Assembly: GCF_000787395.1 (NCBI RefSeq)
Contig: NZ_JRAA01000002.1
Location: forward strand, 806,001 to 870,000
Reading direction: 5' to 3'
From: Solemya velum gill symbiont
Lineage (GTDB): Bacteria > Pseudomonadota > Gammaproteobacteria > Chromatiales > Chromatiaceae
Length of the DNA stretch: 64,000 nt
Shown: piece after piece, positions 55,022 through 61,915 of the stretch
Layout: every line of letters begins with the position of its first letter
Position numbering within the stretch: position 1 is the first letter of the stretch
The notes under the pieces: model-generated
What the model saw: only the letters and a program-made list of their open reading frames with translations
The model's database searches: none
What the model was told of the DNA's origin: nothing
Translations under genes and position numbers: made by a program

Positions 55022-55837
55022 ATGGCGAGAAAGCGCAAACTCAAACTGCACGGGTTTAACAACCTGACAAAAACACTGAGTTTCAACATCTATGACATCT
55101 GCTATGCAAGAAGCAAGGAAGAGGTCAGCTCATATATAGAGTATATAGACGAGGCATATAATGCCGAGCGCCTGACCAATATCCTGACGGATGTTGTCGA
55201 TATCATCGGTGCCAATATCCTCAATGTCGCCCACCAGGACTATGATCCGCAGGGCGCCAGCGTCACCATGCTAATCTCCGAGGAACCGATTGCAGCTGAA
55301 AAGCTCTCCAACACCGAGGCACCGGGCCCTCTTCCCGACAGTGTTGTGATGCATCTGGACAAAAGCCACGTGACCGTGCACACCTACCCAGAGAGCCACC
55401 CGGAAAACGGCATCAGTACCTTCCGTGCCGATATTGATGTTTCGACCTGTGGACGTATTTCACCCCTGAAAGCGCTCAACTACCTGATCCACTCGTTTGA
55501 CTCAGACATTGTCACGCTCGACTACCGCGTGCGAGGCTTCACCCGCGACGTTAACGGCAAAAAACACTTTACCGATCACAACATCAACTCGATTCAGAAT
55601 TATCTCGCTGCTGACACCAAGCGGCGCTACCAGATGATCGACGTCAATGTCTACCAGGAGAACCTGTTCCATACCAAGATGCTACTCAAGGATTTCAATC
55701 TGGACAGCTACCTGTTCGGCGTCGATGCCGATGACATCCCTCCCAAGGAACAGCGCTTGATCGTCGAGGCACTGAAGCGCGAAATGCTCGAAATATTTTA
55801 CGGACGTAACATTCCGAAAGGGATGAAATTGATGTGA
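55022..55837 (+). CDS. speD: S-adenosylmethionine decarboxylase proenzyme
   Basis: A 271-residue E. coli-class SpeD. The self-cleavage site K114-S115 in [12 protein letters not shown] is present; the serine becomes the pyruvoyl group. The [17 protein letters not shown] motif carries the active-site cysteine. It makes the aminopropyl donor for spermidine. speE does not follow it here. Confidence 0.95.
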
Positions 55838-55853
55838 AGCGCTTACCCCATCA

Positions 55854-56606
55854 TTAGGGCAGGGGCACCCATTCGACACGGGTATCGATCGAGCCATCGT
55901 CGTTTAACTCTATCACCCTGTAGCCAGGCGGCCTGTCATCAAAATCCGATTCTTCCGAAAAGGGTACGAACTGTACGCAGGTAGAAGGCGTGCCCAGCAT
56001 CCTGATACCTTTGTGTATGCAGTCCAGTTGTTGATGAATATGTCCGCAAACCACGCCGCGTACGCGTGCTGATGTCCCGACTGCATCCCAGAAAAGATCA
56101 CTGTTCTCCAACCCGATATCATCGAGCCAGACAGTACCGACCGGATAAGGGTGGTGATGCATGAAAATCAGAATATGGCTGGCACTGGTCGATGAAATGG
56201 TCTCGATGAGATTATCCAGTTGCTCCTGGCCCAGGGAGCCATGTACCTCACCTGGTACCGAGGTATCGAGAAACACCAGCTGCCATTCACCAAGTTGCAG
56301 TTCACCGCAGCAACTCACGCTACCGTCACTGAAACTGGCCGACATCATGGCTCTGTCGTCATGGTTACCGGGAAGAGTCACTACAGGGGCATCAAGCAGC
56401 GACACCATTTGTCCGAAGCGGTTGTATATCTCCGGATGAGGATCCTGTGCAAGATCGCCGGTTGCCGCAATCAGTGCAGGGATTTGCCCACGATTTTTGA
56501 TACTGGCAAGTACTGCTGCCAGTGAATCGTCCGTATTGACACAGGACTGCCTGATTTCACCGGGCTCCCGGTGCATGTGCATATCCGTAATCTGGATCAG
56601 TTGCAT
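55854..56606 (-). CDS. cpdA: 3',5'-cyclic-nucleotide phosphodiesterase, CpdA-like
   Basis: A 250-residue class III phosphodiesterase. Metal-binding motifs are D8-M-H10, TGDLAQD, LPGNHDD, MHHHP and CGHIHQ. CpdA hydrolyses cAMP, but close homologues act on other phosphodiesters. Start 56606 (MQLIQITDMH) is preferred over a TTG 18 nt upstream, with GGGAG in front. Confidence 0.88.
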   Translation of the reverse strand: MQLIQITDMHMHREPGEIRQSCVNTDDSLAAVLASIKNRGQIPALIAATGDLAQDPHPEIYNRFGQMVSLLDAPVVTLPGNHDDRAMMSASFSDGSVSCCGELQLGEWQLVFLDTSVPGEVHGSLGQEQLDNLIETISSTSASHILIFMHHHPYPVGTVWLDDIGLENSDLFWDAVGTSARVRGVVCGHIHQQLDCIHKGIRMLGTPSTCVQFVPFSEESDFDDRPPGYRVIELNDDGSIDTRVEWVPLP

Positions 56607-56687
56607 CAGTCTGTAGACTCCCAACCACTAGAACAGGCATTATACTCTATTGAATACCGGTAACCGGCAAGCTGATATAACACCTGA

Positions 56688-57119
56688 ATGGCAACAAGTA
56701 TGAATGATGAATTGACCCAGGCAACAAACCTGCAACAACTTGGGAACGAGGTGAAACGCAGCGGACGACCTCTCCTGCTCCTCTTCACACAGGAGCACTG
56801 CGACTATTGCCATCGCCTCAAGGAAGAGATATTCCTTCCCATGAATCGAAATGCGGCGGAACGCGAACGCGTCCTGATCCGGGAGGTCAGCATTGATTTG
56901 GGTAACGAGATAACCTATTTCGATGGTACCGTGGAAGAGGGCTACCTGTTCTTCAAGAAGTACGGTCTTTTCGTCACACCCACTGTCATTCTGCTTGATT
57001 CGACCGGAACGCAAATCGGCAAGCCGTTACTCGGCGCCAACACGCTGGAGATGTACGGCTGGTATCTCGACGTGGCGATCGATGACGCCCGCCAGACAAT
57101 ATTAGCCAATCAGAAGTAG
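56688..57119 (+). CDS. Thioredoxin-fold protein (SoxW-like)
   Basis: A 143-residue protein with the redox motif C38-D-Y-C41 after TQEH, and a later FVTPTVILLDSTG with cis-proline. It resembles SoxW/thioredoxin-like DUF proteins; it has no clear signal peptide, so cytoplasmic location is likely. It overlaps the convergent beta-barrel gene by 10 nt. Confidence 0.82.
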   Translation: MATSMNDELTQATNLQQLGNEVKRSGRPLLLLFTQEHCDYCHRLKEEIFLPMNRNAAERERVLIREVSIDLGNEITYFDGTVEEGYLFFKKYGLFVTPTVILLDSTGTQIGKPLLGANTLEMYGWYLDVAIDDARQTILANQK

Positions 57120-58297
57120 CGCGCCAGTTCGACCTGCACGAAACTGTCTTTCTCGAAAGCAGCCAGTGGATCATTCACATCCACGTCAGCAAACAGCTGC
57201 GCCTCGACACTCAGCTTGTAATTCTGCCCGATGCGGCGGCTCGCCTCGACCCTGAAGGTTTTACTCGAATGGTCAAGATCGATAATGGCACCAGCCAGCA
57301 GCTCACTGCTCTGGGCATCGTTGAGCGTCAGGCGTGCACCAACGAAAAGATCATTCTGAAACGGGGCCTGCCCATCAGTGCCACGTGAATCATAGAGGTA
57401 TTCACCTATCACCCCGAGGTCCAGCGCAGAGTCGTTGATACCGACAAAGGTGTACTCAAAACCACCGGTGGCCGCCCAGTAGTCTTCGACACTGGTACTA
57501 CGATGCACTGCCTCCAGCTTCCACAACCACGCTTCGCCGGTGTACTGCAACTCGAGACCTGCCTGCTGCAACTGGTAATAGTATGGGGCAAGCAGCTCAA
57601 GTGGCTTGTCCGGGTGAGCAATAAAACCAGGCTCACGCGAGGTACCGTCAAACCACGACAGCGCATAGTCGACATTGCCGAGATAGCCGTTCCAGCGCAG
57701 TGAATAATCGAAATGGCGCTGTTCGTCATCCGACTCATAGGCAGCACTGTCGGTATCAACCGGCATCGAGGTACGTAAACGGCCATTGATGCCGGGAAAG
57801 GTACGCTCACGAAACCAGGGCATGAGGAAAACATCGATACTCCCGGTATCAAACACACGCGTGACCCGAACCATCGGCTGGCCAAGTTTCTCTTCACCGT
57901 CTACGCTCTCGACCAGGTCAGTCTGGTTGATGATATCGACCAGGTGCTGCGACTCGGTAACGCCCCAGAACACCTTGCTGATTCCGGCACGAAATTCCCA
58001 GCCATCCATGACGTGGAGATAACTGAGTTCACGGATATCTGCATGGGTACGTTCATCATCCATGCTGTCGAGACGCACGAAGGGAATAAAGGTAAAACCA
58101 TCCTTGCCGTCATTCCACTGGTGACGATATTCCGGCTGGAAGCTGAGTGAAATCCCTTCGCTCCCCTGCCCTTGCCACTGTGGACTTGAGGTGAAATAAC
58201 GGCCTTCAACGGCGATATTGCCTGACCAGTCAGCGACAGCAACAGATGAGAGAAGCGGCAACAGGCCGGCGAGTAGTATTGATTTATATTGAGTCAT
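57110..58297 (-). CDS. Outer-membrane beta-barrel protein of unknown function
   Basis: A 395-residue protein with a signal peptide (about residues 1-22, ending VAVAD) followed by alternating amphipathic strands and a terminal aromatic (ARYF), as for BamA substrates. Segments such as EFRAGISKVFWGVTESQHLVD look like DUF1302/alginate-export-type porins. Substrate is unknown. It is the last gene of the RND cassette, 18 nt after the methyltransferase gene. Confidence 0.8.
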   Translation of the reverse strand: MTQYKSILLAGLLPLLSSVAVADWSGNIAVEGRYFTSSPQWQGQGSEGISLSFQPEYRHQWNDGKDGFTFIPFVRLDSMDDERTHADIRELSYLHVMDGWEFRAGISKVFWGVTESQHLVDIINQTDLVESVDGEEKLGQPMVRVTRVFDTGSIDVFLMPWFRERTFPGINGRLRTSMPVDTDSAAYESDDEQRHFDYSLRWNGYLGNVDYALSWFDGTSREPGFIAHPDKPLELLAPYYYQLQQAGLELQYTGEAWLWKLEAVHRSTSVEDYWAATGGFEYTFVGINDSALDLGVIGEYLYDSRGTDGQAPFQNDLFVGARLTLNDAQSSELLAGAIIDLDHSSKTFRVEASRRIGQNYKLSVEAQLFADVDVNDPLAAFEKDSFVQVELARYF

Positions 58298-58315
58298 ATT
58301 TTTTTCAGATGTCGT

Positions 58316-58780
58316 CTAGATCCAACGGCGCACGCGCTCCTTGTACTGCAGATACTGGCCGCCAAACTTCTCCTCGAGAATACGTTCCTCGTGTTGAATC
58401 TGCTGTGTGTTGAGCAGCCACACAAATATCGGCAGCAGCATCCACGGAAGCAATTCACCGAGCAGAATCGCCCAGCCAGTCAGGAGAAGAAGCAGGCCGA
58501 GGTACATGGGGTTACGCGTAACCCGGTACATGCCGCCAGTAACAAGGGAGGAGGTTTCATGTAACCGTAACGGATGAAAAGTGGTTTTCGCCCTGAGAAA
58601 AAGTCCAAGCGACCAGAGGTCGATACTGATCGCAATTGCCATAACGATATAGCCGAACCGGTTCCATGGATCAGGAATCAGTTCAACAATCGGAAAGCCA
58701 TTTGCTACCGCCCACATCGCTGCGGCAAAGAGGAGCGCAAATACGGGTGGAAATATTTTTGGCAGCGGCTGTTGCATCAT
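58316..58780 (-). CDS. ICMT/PEMT-like membrane methyltransferase
   Basis: A 154-residue membrane protein with four or five helices. The isoprenylcysteine carboxylmethyltransferase-like SAM motif is visible: GGMYRVTRNPMYLGLLL, then the late EERILEEKFG glutamates. Bacterial members methylate lipids or small molecules. It is placed between the LolA-like gene and the beta-barrel gene with gaps under 20 nt, so is probably co-transcribed. Confidence 0.85.
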   Translation of the reverse strand: MMQQPLPKIFPPVFALLFAAAMWAVANGFPIVELIPDPWNRFGYIVMAIAISIDLWSLGLFLRAKTTFHPLRLHETSSLVTGGMYRVTRNPMYLGLLLLLTGWAILLGELLPWMLLPIFVWLLNTQQIQHEERILEEKFGGQYLQYKERVRRWI

Positions 58781-58794
58781 TCTCTTTCGCAGAT

Positions 58795-59577
58795 TCAGCG
58801 CAGGCGAGCCAGCGCGTTCTTGTTGAAATCACCATCACCAAGCCCGGTATTCAACTTGTAGTTTGCCCACTTCAGCGTAGTCGACTTCCCGGTCAGGTGA
58901 TTCTGCATGAACATCTCGTCGGCTCGCCAGAAATTGCCGTAAGTTTTGTAACCCTTCCATGTCAGCGTCTTCAGCTTTGAGCCCTTGCGGTCATAGTAGT
59001 CAATCTTGACCGGTCGGTACTCCCTGGCATCCAACCATGCAACCTGCTTCGAGTAGCCTGAATGCTTGTAGGCGGGTGTGCGCTCAAGCACATGGCATTT
59101 CCAGCCCTTGCCGCACGCCTCTTCCTTCAGGTACTTGTAGCTGTATTTTTCAATCTCCTGCGACCCCAGGTCCTCGAAAGCGAATTCGCTACCCATAAAA
59201 GGACCCGACTTGTTGCGTGAGGAGATACGCTTGACGCGTTTCAGTGCCGGCAGGTAGAGCCACTGGTCATCGGGCTTGAGACCATGCGAAAAAGTCAGCA
59301 TGGCAGTTCCCTTGATATCCGCCGGTTCATCAAACAGGGAGAGGCTCTTGTCACCATCGCCTTTCTGCTCAAGAGACTTAGTGCGTATCTTGCGTATACT
59401 CTCCTCACCCGAGCGGTTACGCAGCGTCATGATCATGTTAGCAGTCTGGTCTTTCCAGCCAGTGTCACGTGCATCAGCAGCCTGTGCAATACGCAGTCCT
59501 TTCTCTTCAGGGGATTCAGCAAGTACCGGCAACGTAAATGTTGCAAGCAGCAGAATACCGATCATTTTTTTCATCAC
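58795..59577 (-). CDS. LolA-like outer-membrane lipoprotein-sorting family protein
   Basis: A 260-residue exported protein with a signal peptide (about residues 1-20, ending VLAES). The LolA-like fold family PF17131-type pattern is seen: a DQTANMIMTLRNRSG strand, DQWLYLPALKRVKRISSRN and GSEFAFEDLGS. Such proteins are nearly always paired with MMPL/RND exporters and may carry a lipid between membranes. It is 25 nt downstream of the RND gene. Confidence 0.88.
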   Translation of the reverse strand: MMKKMIGILLLATFTLPVLAESPEEKGLRIAQAADARDTGWKDQTANMIMTLRNRSGEESIRKIRTKSLEQKGDGDKSLSLFDEPADIKGTAMLTFSHGLKPDDQWLYLPALKRVKRISSRNKSGPFMGSEFAFEDLGSQEIEKYSYKYLKEEACGKGWKCHVLERTPAYKHSGYSKQVAWLDAREYRPVKIDYYDRKGSKLKTLTWKGYKTYGNFWRADEMFMQNHLTGKSTTLKWANYKLNTGLGDGDFNKNALARLR

Positions 59578-59602
59578 TCACTCCGGTTGTATCTTCGTCA
59601 AT

Positions 59603-61915
59603 TCAATTAGCCTGTTTCGGCTTTTCACTGCCCTGTAACCAGCTGTCAAATCGCATCAACAACGGTGGCAGGAAAAAGAAGTCGGCAAACAGCGCCAGTG
59701 CAATTACTATTGAGACAAGTAAACCCATAGAGCTGTTCAATTCAAAAGATGAAGTTGCCAGCACCATGAAGCCTGCGACCAGTGCCACCGAGGTCACCCA
59801 CAGGGCAACGCCAACAGTTCTGAAGGCATAACGCACAGCGTTGGCTGCATCCAGTCCCTGTTCGCGACGAGCACGCAGGTACTTGCTGAGAAAATGGATC
59901 GCGTCGTCGACTACAATACCCAGCGTCATCGCGGTCACCACCGAAACGCCAAGACCGATTTCACCATCGATAACAGCCCAGATACCAAATGCCATACCAG
60001 CCGGGGCCAGGTTCGGGACCAGGCTGACAAAGCCATAGCGCCATGATTTGAGCGCAACCATCAGGATAAGCGAAATCAGTACCAGGGCGACCAGGGTGCC
60101 TCCCAGCATACTCTTGATATTGCGTGTGCCGATATGCGAGAACATCACCGTCGGGCTGGCCCCGAAGGTGAGAATATCCGGCGTATTTTCCGCCATCCAG
60201 TCGTACACGAGTTCTTCGAACTCCAGCACCTCGTTGGTCGACATGGTCTCCATGGTTACAGACAGGCGGGTTGCCTGCTTGTTGATATCGATCTGGTTAT
60301 TCAGATCCAGCCCATACGGCAGTGACATCTCGTAAAGCAGCAGGTACTGGGCAGCCAGGTCACGCTGCTGCGGCAACTTGTGCCATGCCTCATCATCACC
60401 GTGCATATTCCGGTTAAGACGCTTGAAAACATCTGTAATGGTACTGACATGCATGACATTCGGCTGGGCTCTCAGCCAATTGGCAAGATCCTCGACCTGT
60501 TGCAAATTCTTCGGATCTGATACACCGCCATCGCTGCCGCTATTCAGTGAATAATCGATGAAATAGACACCTGTCAGATTTTCGACCACAAAGTCTGTGT
60601 CAGTTCTGAACTGGATACGTTCATCAAAGTATTCAACAAACACATCGTTAGTCTCGTTCATCGGAACCAGTGCAACCAGTGCCAGTATCAGTGCGCCCAT
60701 ACCGACCAATAGCTGTTTCCTGAATTTGATAATCCAGTCAGCCAGTTTCAACATCACGTGACTATCATGCTGTTCATGCTCCTTAACCATGGAAGGCAGT
60801 AGTGTCGCCAGAGCAGGCAGAAAGCTGACAGAGAGAAGAAAGGCGATAATCACACCAATTGCAGAAGTGTTTCCAAGATCACCAAAAGGCGGTGCATCTG
60901 AGAAATTAAGCGTCAGGAATCCAATCGCGGTGGTTGCCGAGGTCAGGAACACCGGGCTGAAGTTAATGCGCATACTCTCAACCATCGCCTGATTTTTATC
61001 ATGGCCTTGTCGCAAGCCCTGCATCCAGTTAGTAAGAATATGCACACAGTCAGCTACAGCTAGTGTGAGAATAATCGCCGGTGCAGACATCATCGGCCCG
61101 GTCAACGGTATCCCCATCCAGCCGGCTAGTCCCATCGCGGAAATGACCGACATGATAATCACCAGGGCGGTGACAAGGGTACCGACAACACCACGCAACT
61201 GGATAAAAACAGTCACAACAATCAGAAGGAATGCAAGCGGCAACAGGTTGCTCGCATCATACTGGGACGCCTCGGCGAAGGCACTGTTCATCATCACCAC
61301 GCCAGTCAGGTAGACCTGCAAATCCGGGTAGGTTTCCTCCACATATGCTGCAATCTCACGCACCTTGCCGACCACGTCTGGAACTTCTTCTACCGGATTC
61401 AAGCCAGGTAGTTCGACCGTGATATTAATCGCAGTCACATGACCCTGCGGTGAGACCAGTCGGCGCTTCAGCAATGGCTCCTTGAGAGCGACGGACTTGA
61501 TATATTCGACCTCTTCATCACTCAGCCCTGCCGGTTCATCGATCAGGTCAATGACGGTCAGGTCATCTTCTTCGGAAAACGAGTGTTGAAAGTTGCTCAG
61601 CGAGTCGACACGCAGTGAATAGGGCACCTGCCACGAACGCTCCGTGACATCTATAATTGCCTCGTAGACATCACGAGTAAAGACATTGCCTCCCTTGGGT
61701 TCGAGCACAATAAGGACATTGTCATTCTTGGTGTAGGTATTCTGGAGTTCCTCGAAGGCTGTCAGCTGCGGGTTCTCCTTGCTGAAAAAGACCCGGTAAT
61801 CGCTTGAGAATGCAAGAAAACGCCCGCCGCTCGCCGCCAGGGCTACCAGCAGTATGGTCGCAACGATTACCAGCCAGCGATAACGCAATATGCCCGCTGC
61901 ATATCTTTCATTCAT
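59603..61915 (-). CDS. MMPL/RND-family exporter
   Basis: A 770-residue RND transporter with two repeats, each of one helix, a periplasmic domain and five helices. In each repeat helix 4 carries the charged motif, as in VADCVHILTNW and VVDDAIHFLSKY. The size and the lack of a fused adaptor are those of hopanoid/lipid-type MMPL transporters (HpnN-like). With the LolA-like protein it could move a lipid from inner membrane to the barrel partner. Substrate is inferred. Confidence 0.9.
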   Translation of the reverse strand: MNERYAAGILRYRWLVIVATILLVALAASGGRFLAFSSDYRVFFSKENPQLTAFEELQNTYTKNDNVLIVLEPKGGNVFTRDVYEAIIDVTERSWQVPYSLRVDSLSNFQHSFSEEDDLTVIDLIDEPAGLSDEEVEYIKSVALKEPLLKRRLVSPQGHVTAINITVELPGLNPVEEVPDVVGKVREIAAYVEETYPDLQVYLTGVVMMNSAFAEASQYDASNLLPLAFLLIVVTVFIQLRGVVGTLVTALVIIMSVISAMGLAGWMGIPLTGPMMSAPAIILTLAVADCVHILTNWMQGLRQGHDKNQAMVESMRINFSPVFLTSATTAIGFLTLNFSDAPPFGDLGNTSAIGVIIAFLLSVSFLPALATLLPSMVKEHEQHDSHVMLKLADWIIKFRKQLLVGMGALILALVALVPMNETNDVFVEYFDERIQFRTDTDFVVENLTGVYFIDYSLNSGSDGGVSDPKNLQQVEDLANWLRAQPNVMHVSTITDVFKRLNRNMHGDDEAWHKLPQQRDLAAQYLLLYEMSLPYGLDLNNQIDINKQATRLSVTMETMSTNEVLEFEELVYDWMAENTPDILTFGASPTVMFSHIGTRNIKSMLGGTLVALVLISLILMVALKSWRYGFVSLVPNLAPAGMAFGIWAVIDGEIGLGVSVVTAMTLGIVVDDAIHFLSKYLRARREQGLDAANAVRYAFRTVGVALWVTSVALVAGFMVLATSSFELNSSMGLLVSIVIALALFADFFFLPPLLMRFDSWLQGSEKPKQAN

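Follow-up and report, generated by a model that had tools for sequence, protein, structure and literature searches.

A lineage-specific methyltransferase gene within a conserved MMPL, LolA-like and outer-membrane barrel gene row of the Solemya velum gill symbiont

The stretch of DNA studied here (the window) comprises 64,000 nucleotides of the Solemya velum gill symbiont genome (contig NZ_JRAA01000002.1, positions 806,001 to 870,000). It contains a row of four genes coding for an MMPL-type RND pump, a LolA_like periplasmic carrier, a small membrane methyltransferase (MT) and an outer-membrane barrel (Table 1). The MMPL, LolA_like and barrel genes are referred to below as the trio. The original prediction, made from the sequence alone, described four genes packed on one strand with gaps of 14-25 nt; the coordinates of the open reading frames (ORFs) agree with this, the gaps along the row being 25, 14 and 18 nt. 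The MMPL, LolA-fold and ICMT/PEMT identities that it had assigned were borne out by Pfam scores above cut-off.

Table 1. Genes and features of the row in the window
Feature	Position	Strand	Basis and remarks
MMPL/RND pump, HAE3-like, 770 aa	59603..61915	minus	PF03176
LolA_like periplasmic carrier, 260 aa	58795..59577	minus	PF17131; listed start GTG, next codon ATG
Small membrane methyltransferase (MT), PEMT/ICMT type, 154 aa, accessory	58316..58780	minus	PF04191 + PF04140
Outer-membrane barrel, distant DUF1302 relative, 395 aa	57110..58297	minus	no Pfam family; hhalign, model
Barrel signature, residues 105-142	57872..57985	minus	most constant stretch, alignments A1 + A2

The pump scored 134.7 bits with PF03176 (cut-off 20.5). 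Its top NCBIfam model was TIGR00921 (HAE3, E 9e-59), yet the score of 199.2 bits was below the cut-off of 351.9, and for this reason the protein is labelled HAE3-like. Residues D670, D671, H674 and H292 were invariant in all 64 aligned trio loci having a residue at these positions, and D289 was kept in only 39 of 64; the conserved D and H residues are presumably those of the proton relay. A crude hydropathy scan detected nine segments, the RND fold having twelve membrane helices. The carrier scored 213.6 bits with PF17131 (cut-off 30), was the only match to this family in its own genome (G000) and is closely related to a protein of solved structure (3bk5, E 1.8e-87); the match to the LolA1 model was weak (13.9 against a cut-off of 100). 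Another RND match of the same genome (L002, G000:C3:11872-12543) has one TGA inside an open frame of 1033 codons, and may be a decayed gene or a case of recoding.

The window barrel matched no Pfam family, DUF1302 (PF06980) included, not even with the E limit raised to 10. PF06980 matched two of 57 barrel relatives at E 0.1 or better, the best value being 5.9e-6. Comparison of the barrel by hhalign with four DUF1302 proteins gave a probability of 97.0 and an E value of 1.1e-10; the alignment covered 340 columns and kept the WG motif in register. The protein of locus L223 matched both families. On these two grounds we regard the barrel as a distant DUF1302 relative lying below the Pfam cut-off. 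Its assignment as an outer-membrane barrel, already made in the original prediction, is borne out by a hydrophobic N-terminal segment (crude hydropathy scan), a C-terminal Phe invariant in 29/29 homologues, and an AlphaFold model (57 sequences, pLDDT 91.1) containing 18 strands of at least 8 residues. The best matches of the model among solved folds were OprD/Occ porins, a BenF-like porin and AlgE (Z ~23, root-mean-square deviation ~3-4 over ~300 residues); AlgE ranked first with Foldseek, and the list of structural matches in the PDB was filled by one fold, so that further families may also match. The predicted fold of the window barrel is thus of the OprD/AlgE type with 18 strands. The signature GxxKVFWGVTExxHLVDIINQTDLVExxDGExKLGQPM was unusually constant in an alignment of 29 relatives, and in the model it forms mostly a long loop joining two strands.

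Conservation of the row was tested in two samples. Among 142 relatives 50 had a barrel match, which exceeded 200 bits in 44, and in 29 of the 30 relatives' loci returned (the window's own included) the LolA_like gene adjoined the barrel gene. In contigs of GTDB at least 569 stretches encode barrel relatives, from which the best 80 were kept; some of the contigs end too early to be judged. The LolA_like and MMPL genes were both upstream of the barrel gene on the same strand in 54 of the 63 loci with at least 3.8 kb of upstream sequence, counts that lean to near kin because only the best 80 stretches were used. The nine remaining loci were L098, where the LolA_like gene is just beyond the set distance, L151, where no MMPL gene was found, and seven lone barrels (L089, L113, L122, L140, L148 of Marithrix, L152 and L154). 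All seven lone-barrel genomes, as well as G118 and G091, encode a LolA_like protein somewhere (9/9), and in six of the seven, G148 being the exception, the 1.5 kb flanking the best match to LolA_like contain an MMPL gene. The order of the trio recurs across many genera; its carriers include Thiotrichaceae, Thiosymbion, Thiodiazotropha, Sedimenticola, Cycloclasticus and Oceanospirillaceae, and it is also carried by Halioglobus pRR3-57. A TetR gene, which is of one of three kinds, was located directly upstream of 52 of the 72 MMPL ORFs whose flank was long enough to show one; no TetR gene occupies this position in the window, L068 or L070. The natural unit is therefore the three genes MMPL-LolA_like-barrel, and the barrel is no less constant in it than the carrier. 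The original prediction had proposed a set reaching from the inner membrane across the periplasm to the outer membrane, and it is as this trio that such a set is kept as a unit.

Two side observations concern the spread of the trio. On plasmid p1 of Pseudoalteromonas rhizosphaerae (L224, 23.9 kb) the trio, with its barrel divergent, stands beside gmtX, an integrase gene and gmtY, indicating that it can travel on a mobile element. Genome G138 has nine LolA_like matches; in both of the stretches examined, C71 and C95, an MMPL gene and a DUF1302-type barrel gene adjoin the match. This multiplicity suggests several cargo-specific copies.

MT scored 49.6 bits with PF04191 (PEMT, cut-off 25) and 27.6 with PF04140 (ICMT, cut-off 24), and gave a weak match to solved ICMT enzymes (4a2n, E 1.5e-5). 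The NCBIfam models for isoprenylcysteine methyltransferase, LmtA and MddA were tried and rejected, since the scores (47.1/160, 33.2/325 and 24.1/270) were all below cut-off; consequently, the substrate cannot be read from the family name. The gene (METHYLTRANSFERASE) was present in the row in the window and in L069 (G002), L070 (G060), L090, L091, L092, L093, L095, L098, L099 and L147, that is, in 8 of the best 80 GTDB loci and in 3 of the 30 relatives' loci, making 11 loci with MT at the same position when the window is counted. The in-row copies were 49-62% identical to the window copy, and 42 residues, including R89 N90 P91 M92 Y93 and E131 E132, were invariant in 11/11. In a quick tree built from the joined MMPL, LolA_like and barrel sequences (65 rows), all ten in-row cases with a full trio fell into one clade of 13. 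With L077 (G063) excluded, the distribution corresponds to one gain and two losses on the trio tree. L077 was rejected as an in-row case as its gene is ~4 kb beyond the MMPL gene, on the opposite strand, and belongs to another subfamily. The ratio of nonsynonymous to synonymous substitution rates (dN/dS) between G002 and G060 was 0.115 for MT, indicating purifying selection, and 0.081, 0.069 and 0.082 for MMPL, LolA_like and the barrel, respectively. Some of these rows contain a further gene: a small OMP_b-brl barrel is encoded between LolA_like and MT in L092, L095 and L098, and a MAPEG protein in a row gap of L091 (L091:8161-8580).

PEMT-type genes (METHYLTRANSFERASES) were found near MMPL/LolA_like genes in three further arrangements. 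In G204 the gene adjoins TetR and MMPL genes, the contig ending inside the latter; in G091 it adjoins TetR and LolA_like genes, with a broken barrel gene after them and an MMPL gene further upstream. G030 has a second, divergent system (L080:224-7165), in which genes for an MMPL pump, an alpha/beta hydrolase, a PEMT-type MT, a LolA_like protein and a DUF1302 protein are on one strand, with an unnamed membrane gene in the same row. It resembles the window row in combining an MMPL pump, a PEMT-type MT, a LolA_like carrier and a DUF1302-type barrel on one strand, but differs in the extra hydrolase, in gene order and in the subfamily of the MT. The core of this system, without the hydrolase and MT, was also present in G138 (L221). 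In the MT tree G030 and G091 were in another subfamily than the window MT, and G204 took a loose position near the in-row group; the in-row copies were not recovered as a single clade, though a single clade is also compatible with the tree. The linkage of MT to MMPL/LolA_like genes has thus been drawn from at least two MT subfamilies. Within 5 kb of a LolA_like gene five MT hits were seen against 0.54 expected. As three of the five are one orthologous row, they count as three events (Poisson p ~0.018, a generous value because G030 and G091 had been noticed before the test). The chance estimate used ~77-78 MT hits (E ~1e-8 or better) and ~124-125 LolA_like hits, counted by eye in 69 genomes; G063 (7 kb) and G100 (11 kb) lie outside the 5-kb limit, and G204 was left out on account of its contig end. 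MT hits near LolA_like genes thus exceed chance modestly. No match was found when carriage of MT by phages was looked for.

The idea of a four-gene unit therefore stands for the trio, given that LolA_like lies beside the barrel in 29/30 loci, but not for MT, which is an accessory, lineage-specific addition (3/30, 8/80). By the original prediction, the four-gene unit would be chance if MT or the barrel were not conserved beside the pump and carrier in related genomes. This is not the case: within one clade 11 loci have MT in an identical position, and MT is met in the three further arrangements. Since the order of the trio recurs in many genera (54/63 loci) and MT keeps its position throughout those 11 loci, we rejected the explanation that the four genes are chance neighbours.

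Several known systems resemble the row. AmeABCD of Castellaniella defragrans, like the window row, is a conserved cassette in which an HAE3 pump is combined with a periplasmic protein of the LolA superfamily and, in the outer membrane, a DUF1302 protein, and its deletion led to lower monoterpene tolerance and higher accumulation of Nile Red (PMC6394551). Unlike the proteins of the window, AmeB is a DUF1329 protein (451 aa) and AmeA a full DUF1302 protein (605 aa); there is a second periplasmic protein, AmeC, and the accessible part of the report describes no methyltransferase (PMC6394551). The gaps of 14-25 nt leave no room for an AmeC-type gene in the window row, and for this reason the row is taken to work like AmeABCD but is not filed as a member. 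Its likeness to AmeABCD has two further limits, the pump being only HAE3-like and the barrel only a distant DUF1302 relative. In Pseudomonas putida DUF1302/DUF1329 proteins are needed on Tween 20, and co-folding was used to model them as a transport system; PP_0765 (DUF1302)/PP_0766 (DUF1329) and PP_2018/PP_2019 are similar to the window row in that a barrel and a LolA-superfamily protein are proposed to act with an inner-membrane transporter, and dissimilar in that the genes are in two places, the accessible text mentioning no methyltransferase (PMC10866462). In Thalassolituus oleivorans TOL_3187 was up 42-fold, and TOL_3188 was up only on n-C28 (PMC6304351). As in the window row, MMPL and LolA-like domains (TOL_3187) precede a porin-like protein in which no known domain is recognised, but here one protein combines the two domains (PMC6304351). 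No fusion of this kind was present among the examined loci, in which no MMPL ORF was longer than 860 aa.

An alternative raised by these reports is that the trio handles foreign hydrocarbons (alkanes, terpenes, fatty esters), detoxifying them or taking them up as hydrocarbon degraders do. The monoterpene tolerance conferred by AmeABCD, the induction of TOL_3187 and of porin-like TOL_3188 on n-C28, and the growth of P. putida on Tween 20 point in this direction, as does the trio in Cycloclasticus and Oceanospirillaceae. However, TOL_3187/3188 are likened to the window proteins by domain description and not by sequence homology, and it is hard to see what a methyltransferase would do in the efflux of hydrocarbons. 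Moreover, many carriers of the trio are sulfur oxidisers and symbionts (Thiotrichaceae, Thiosymbion, Thiodiazotropha, Sedimenticola), none of which is, to our knowledge, a hydrocarbon degrader. We consider this alternative unlikely.

The main rival explanation comes from Bacteroidota. A record of Prevotella nigrescens shows MMPL, LolA-like and DUF1302 genes in the same order as in the window, and TetR-MMPL-LolA-like-hypothetical operons, whose TetR gene recalls many of the trio loci, show some of the strongest responses to iron depletion in Porphyromonas gingivalis and Prevotella intermedia (PMC10434189); such an operon was strongly up under hemin limitation in P. gingivalis (PMC10470040). Genes of the ICMT family outside the MMPL operon were also up, 3.7- and 12.2-fold, in the two species (PMC10434189), and mycobacterial MmpL4/5 are reported to export siderophores. 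The trio could accordingly be an iron/haem-limitation system, for siderophore export or haem-linked transport, with MT belonging to the same response or tailoring a metallophore. These carriers are, however, distant (the P. nigrescens LolA-like protein is only 32% identical to the window carrier), and their rows differ from that of the window in having extra ABC-transporter genes and no methyltransferase. The scan of eight ORFs of the window revealed no recognisable iron-uptake gene, iron-regulatory sites not having been searched for. This explanation, too, has a low probability in our estimate.

Clues to the cargo were provided by plasmids of Sulfitobacter sp. DSM 110093 and S. dubius, which carry, in this order, genes for a type I polyketide synthase, an MMPL pump (37% identity), a LolA-like protein (45%), galE and a barrel (28%, signature kept). 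The synthase has KS, AT, DH, ER-like, KR and ACP domains, so the trio is here part of a cluster making a lipid-like chain; condensation-domain and Mur-ligase genes are in the same stretch. In Leisingera a more distant LolA-like/MMPL pair, with no barrel named, is situated among biosynthetic genes. In the aryl-polyene cluster of Escherichia coli CFT073 the RND protein ApeM, the LolA-like ApeL and the S-adenosylmethionine (SAM) methyltransferase ApeB serve one outer-membrane lipid (PMC8253772). Unlike MT, ApeB is described in the accessible part of that paper only as SAM-dependent and acts on the aryl head, and the cluster differs from the window row by a LolB-like protein, ApeN, by a full set of synthase genes and by a gene table listing no DUF1302 barrel (PMC8253772). 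Two candidate cargoes were rejected: the genome of the symbiont gave no match to squalene-hopene cyclase (hopanoids) or to WS/DGAT (wax esters and triacylglycerols), for which 5 and 3 of the 142 relatives, respectively, had one. In the open-access literature searched we found no experiment naming the cargo of this branch.

Taken together, these data are best accommodated by a transport line dedicated to moving a hydrophobic or amphiphilic cargo outwards, which in the clade of the window would be methylated by the in-row MT. The outward direction, the class of cargo and the target of methylation are what we infer, and as a whole this reading is possible but tentative. The cargo, a small molecule of lipid or lipid-like nature, would be taken from the inner membrane by the MMPL pump, driven by the proton gradient. 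The LolA-fold protein would shield its greasy part across the periplasm, and the DUF1302-type barrel would move it into or through the outer membrane. MT, a membrane-embedded SAM-dependent enzyme, may add a methyl group to the cargo while it is at the inner membrane, either ahead of loading or in the course of it; the polar group modified would be a carboxyl, phosphate or amine. Of the two parts of the reading, export of a hydrophobic cargo by the trio is probable; it is favoured by the kept order of the trio, usually behind TetR, by the Sulfitobacter polyketide cluster, and by the AmeABCD, P. putida and aryl-polyene precedents. If the trio does so, it is somewhat likely that MT acts on the cargo, as suggested by its confinement to one clade, its dN/dS of 0.115 and its recurrent linkage to MMPL/LolA_like genes.

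Several observations weigh against this export reading. The closest porin-like folds (OprD/Occ) mostly import hydrophilic solutes, with AlgE as an exporter. No biosynthetic cluster was recognised next to the window row. The alkane response was interpreted by its authors as uptake (PMC6304351). The remaining points concern MT, and they also speak for the possibility that it is no more than a bystander, a small mobile gene inserted into the row on one occasion and merely co-transcribed with it, its substrate being an unrelated lipid or other small molecule. Stand-alone orthologues with 47-54% identity exist away from the trio in G156, G274, G362, G212 and G162; in the first three the adjacent gene is what we take to be an rsgA-like gene, and G162 has neither barrel nor LolA_like. 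Co-occurrence of MT and barrel over whole genomes was weak (25 of 97 barrel genomes vs 28 of 179 others, p 0.054), and was dropped as support when the apparent excess in the first 142 genomes shrank to this value in the sample of 276. Within the clade MT is lost in three of 13 members, namely L068 (G059) and L088 (Thiosymbion), which are the nearest sisters, and L094, and G059 had no MT match anywhere in its genome at E 1e-3. The bystander role is also favoured by the entry of other genes, those for OMP_b-brl and MAPEG proteins, into the same gaps. On the other hand, MT has been kept at one place in 11 loci at 49-62% identity, is under purifying selection, and is linked to MMPL/LolA_like genes in G204, G091 and G030 through at least two subfamilies. 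We therefore regard the bystander role as somewhat unlikely.

In the surroundings of the row, a thioredoxin-like gene (PF13098, 56688-57119) is convergent with the barrel gene, overlapping its end by 10 nt. Nearby (55022-55837 and 55854-56624) lie a member of the S-adenosylmethionine decarboxylase family and a gene above the cut-off of a 3',5'-cAMP phosphodiesterase model. L070 has the same wider neighbourhood as the window, with translation, apaH-like, OsmC-like, thioredoxin-like and peptidase genes (named by eye). Neither in the eight ORFs of the Pfam scan nor, by eye, in the ORF list for 48.8-64 kb were ketosynthase, acyl carrier protein or LolB-like genes detected, the rest of the genome being unsearched.

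The architecture of the trio has already been described in pieces, and the window adds a variant confined to one clade, a row that includes a PEMT-type methyltransferase gene, of which we found no description in the open-access literature searched. A bolder version of the export reading, rather unlikely in our judgement, would be a four-part, methylation-coupled export line in which methylation is perhaps the licence for loading onto the LolA-fold protein; it would have evolved at least twice, from different MT subfamilies, and in this form would be a trait of a clade including Thiotrichaceae and the family of the window. MMPL-LolA_like-DUF1302-type rows are widespread, and the separate reports on monoterpenes, alkanes and Tween, iron starvation and polyketides can be joined into one architecture. 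Two handles on its cargo are offered: the Sulfitobacter polyketide cluster, which should have an identifiable product, and the clade with the in-row MT, in which a shift of 14 mass units would mark the compound.

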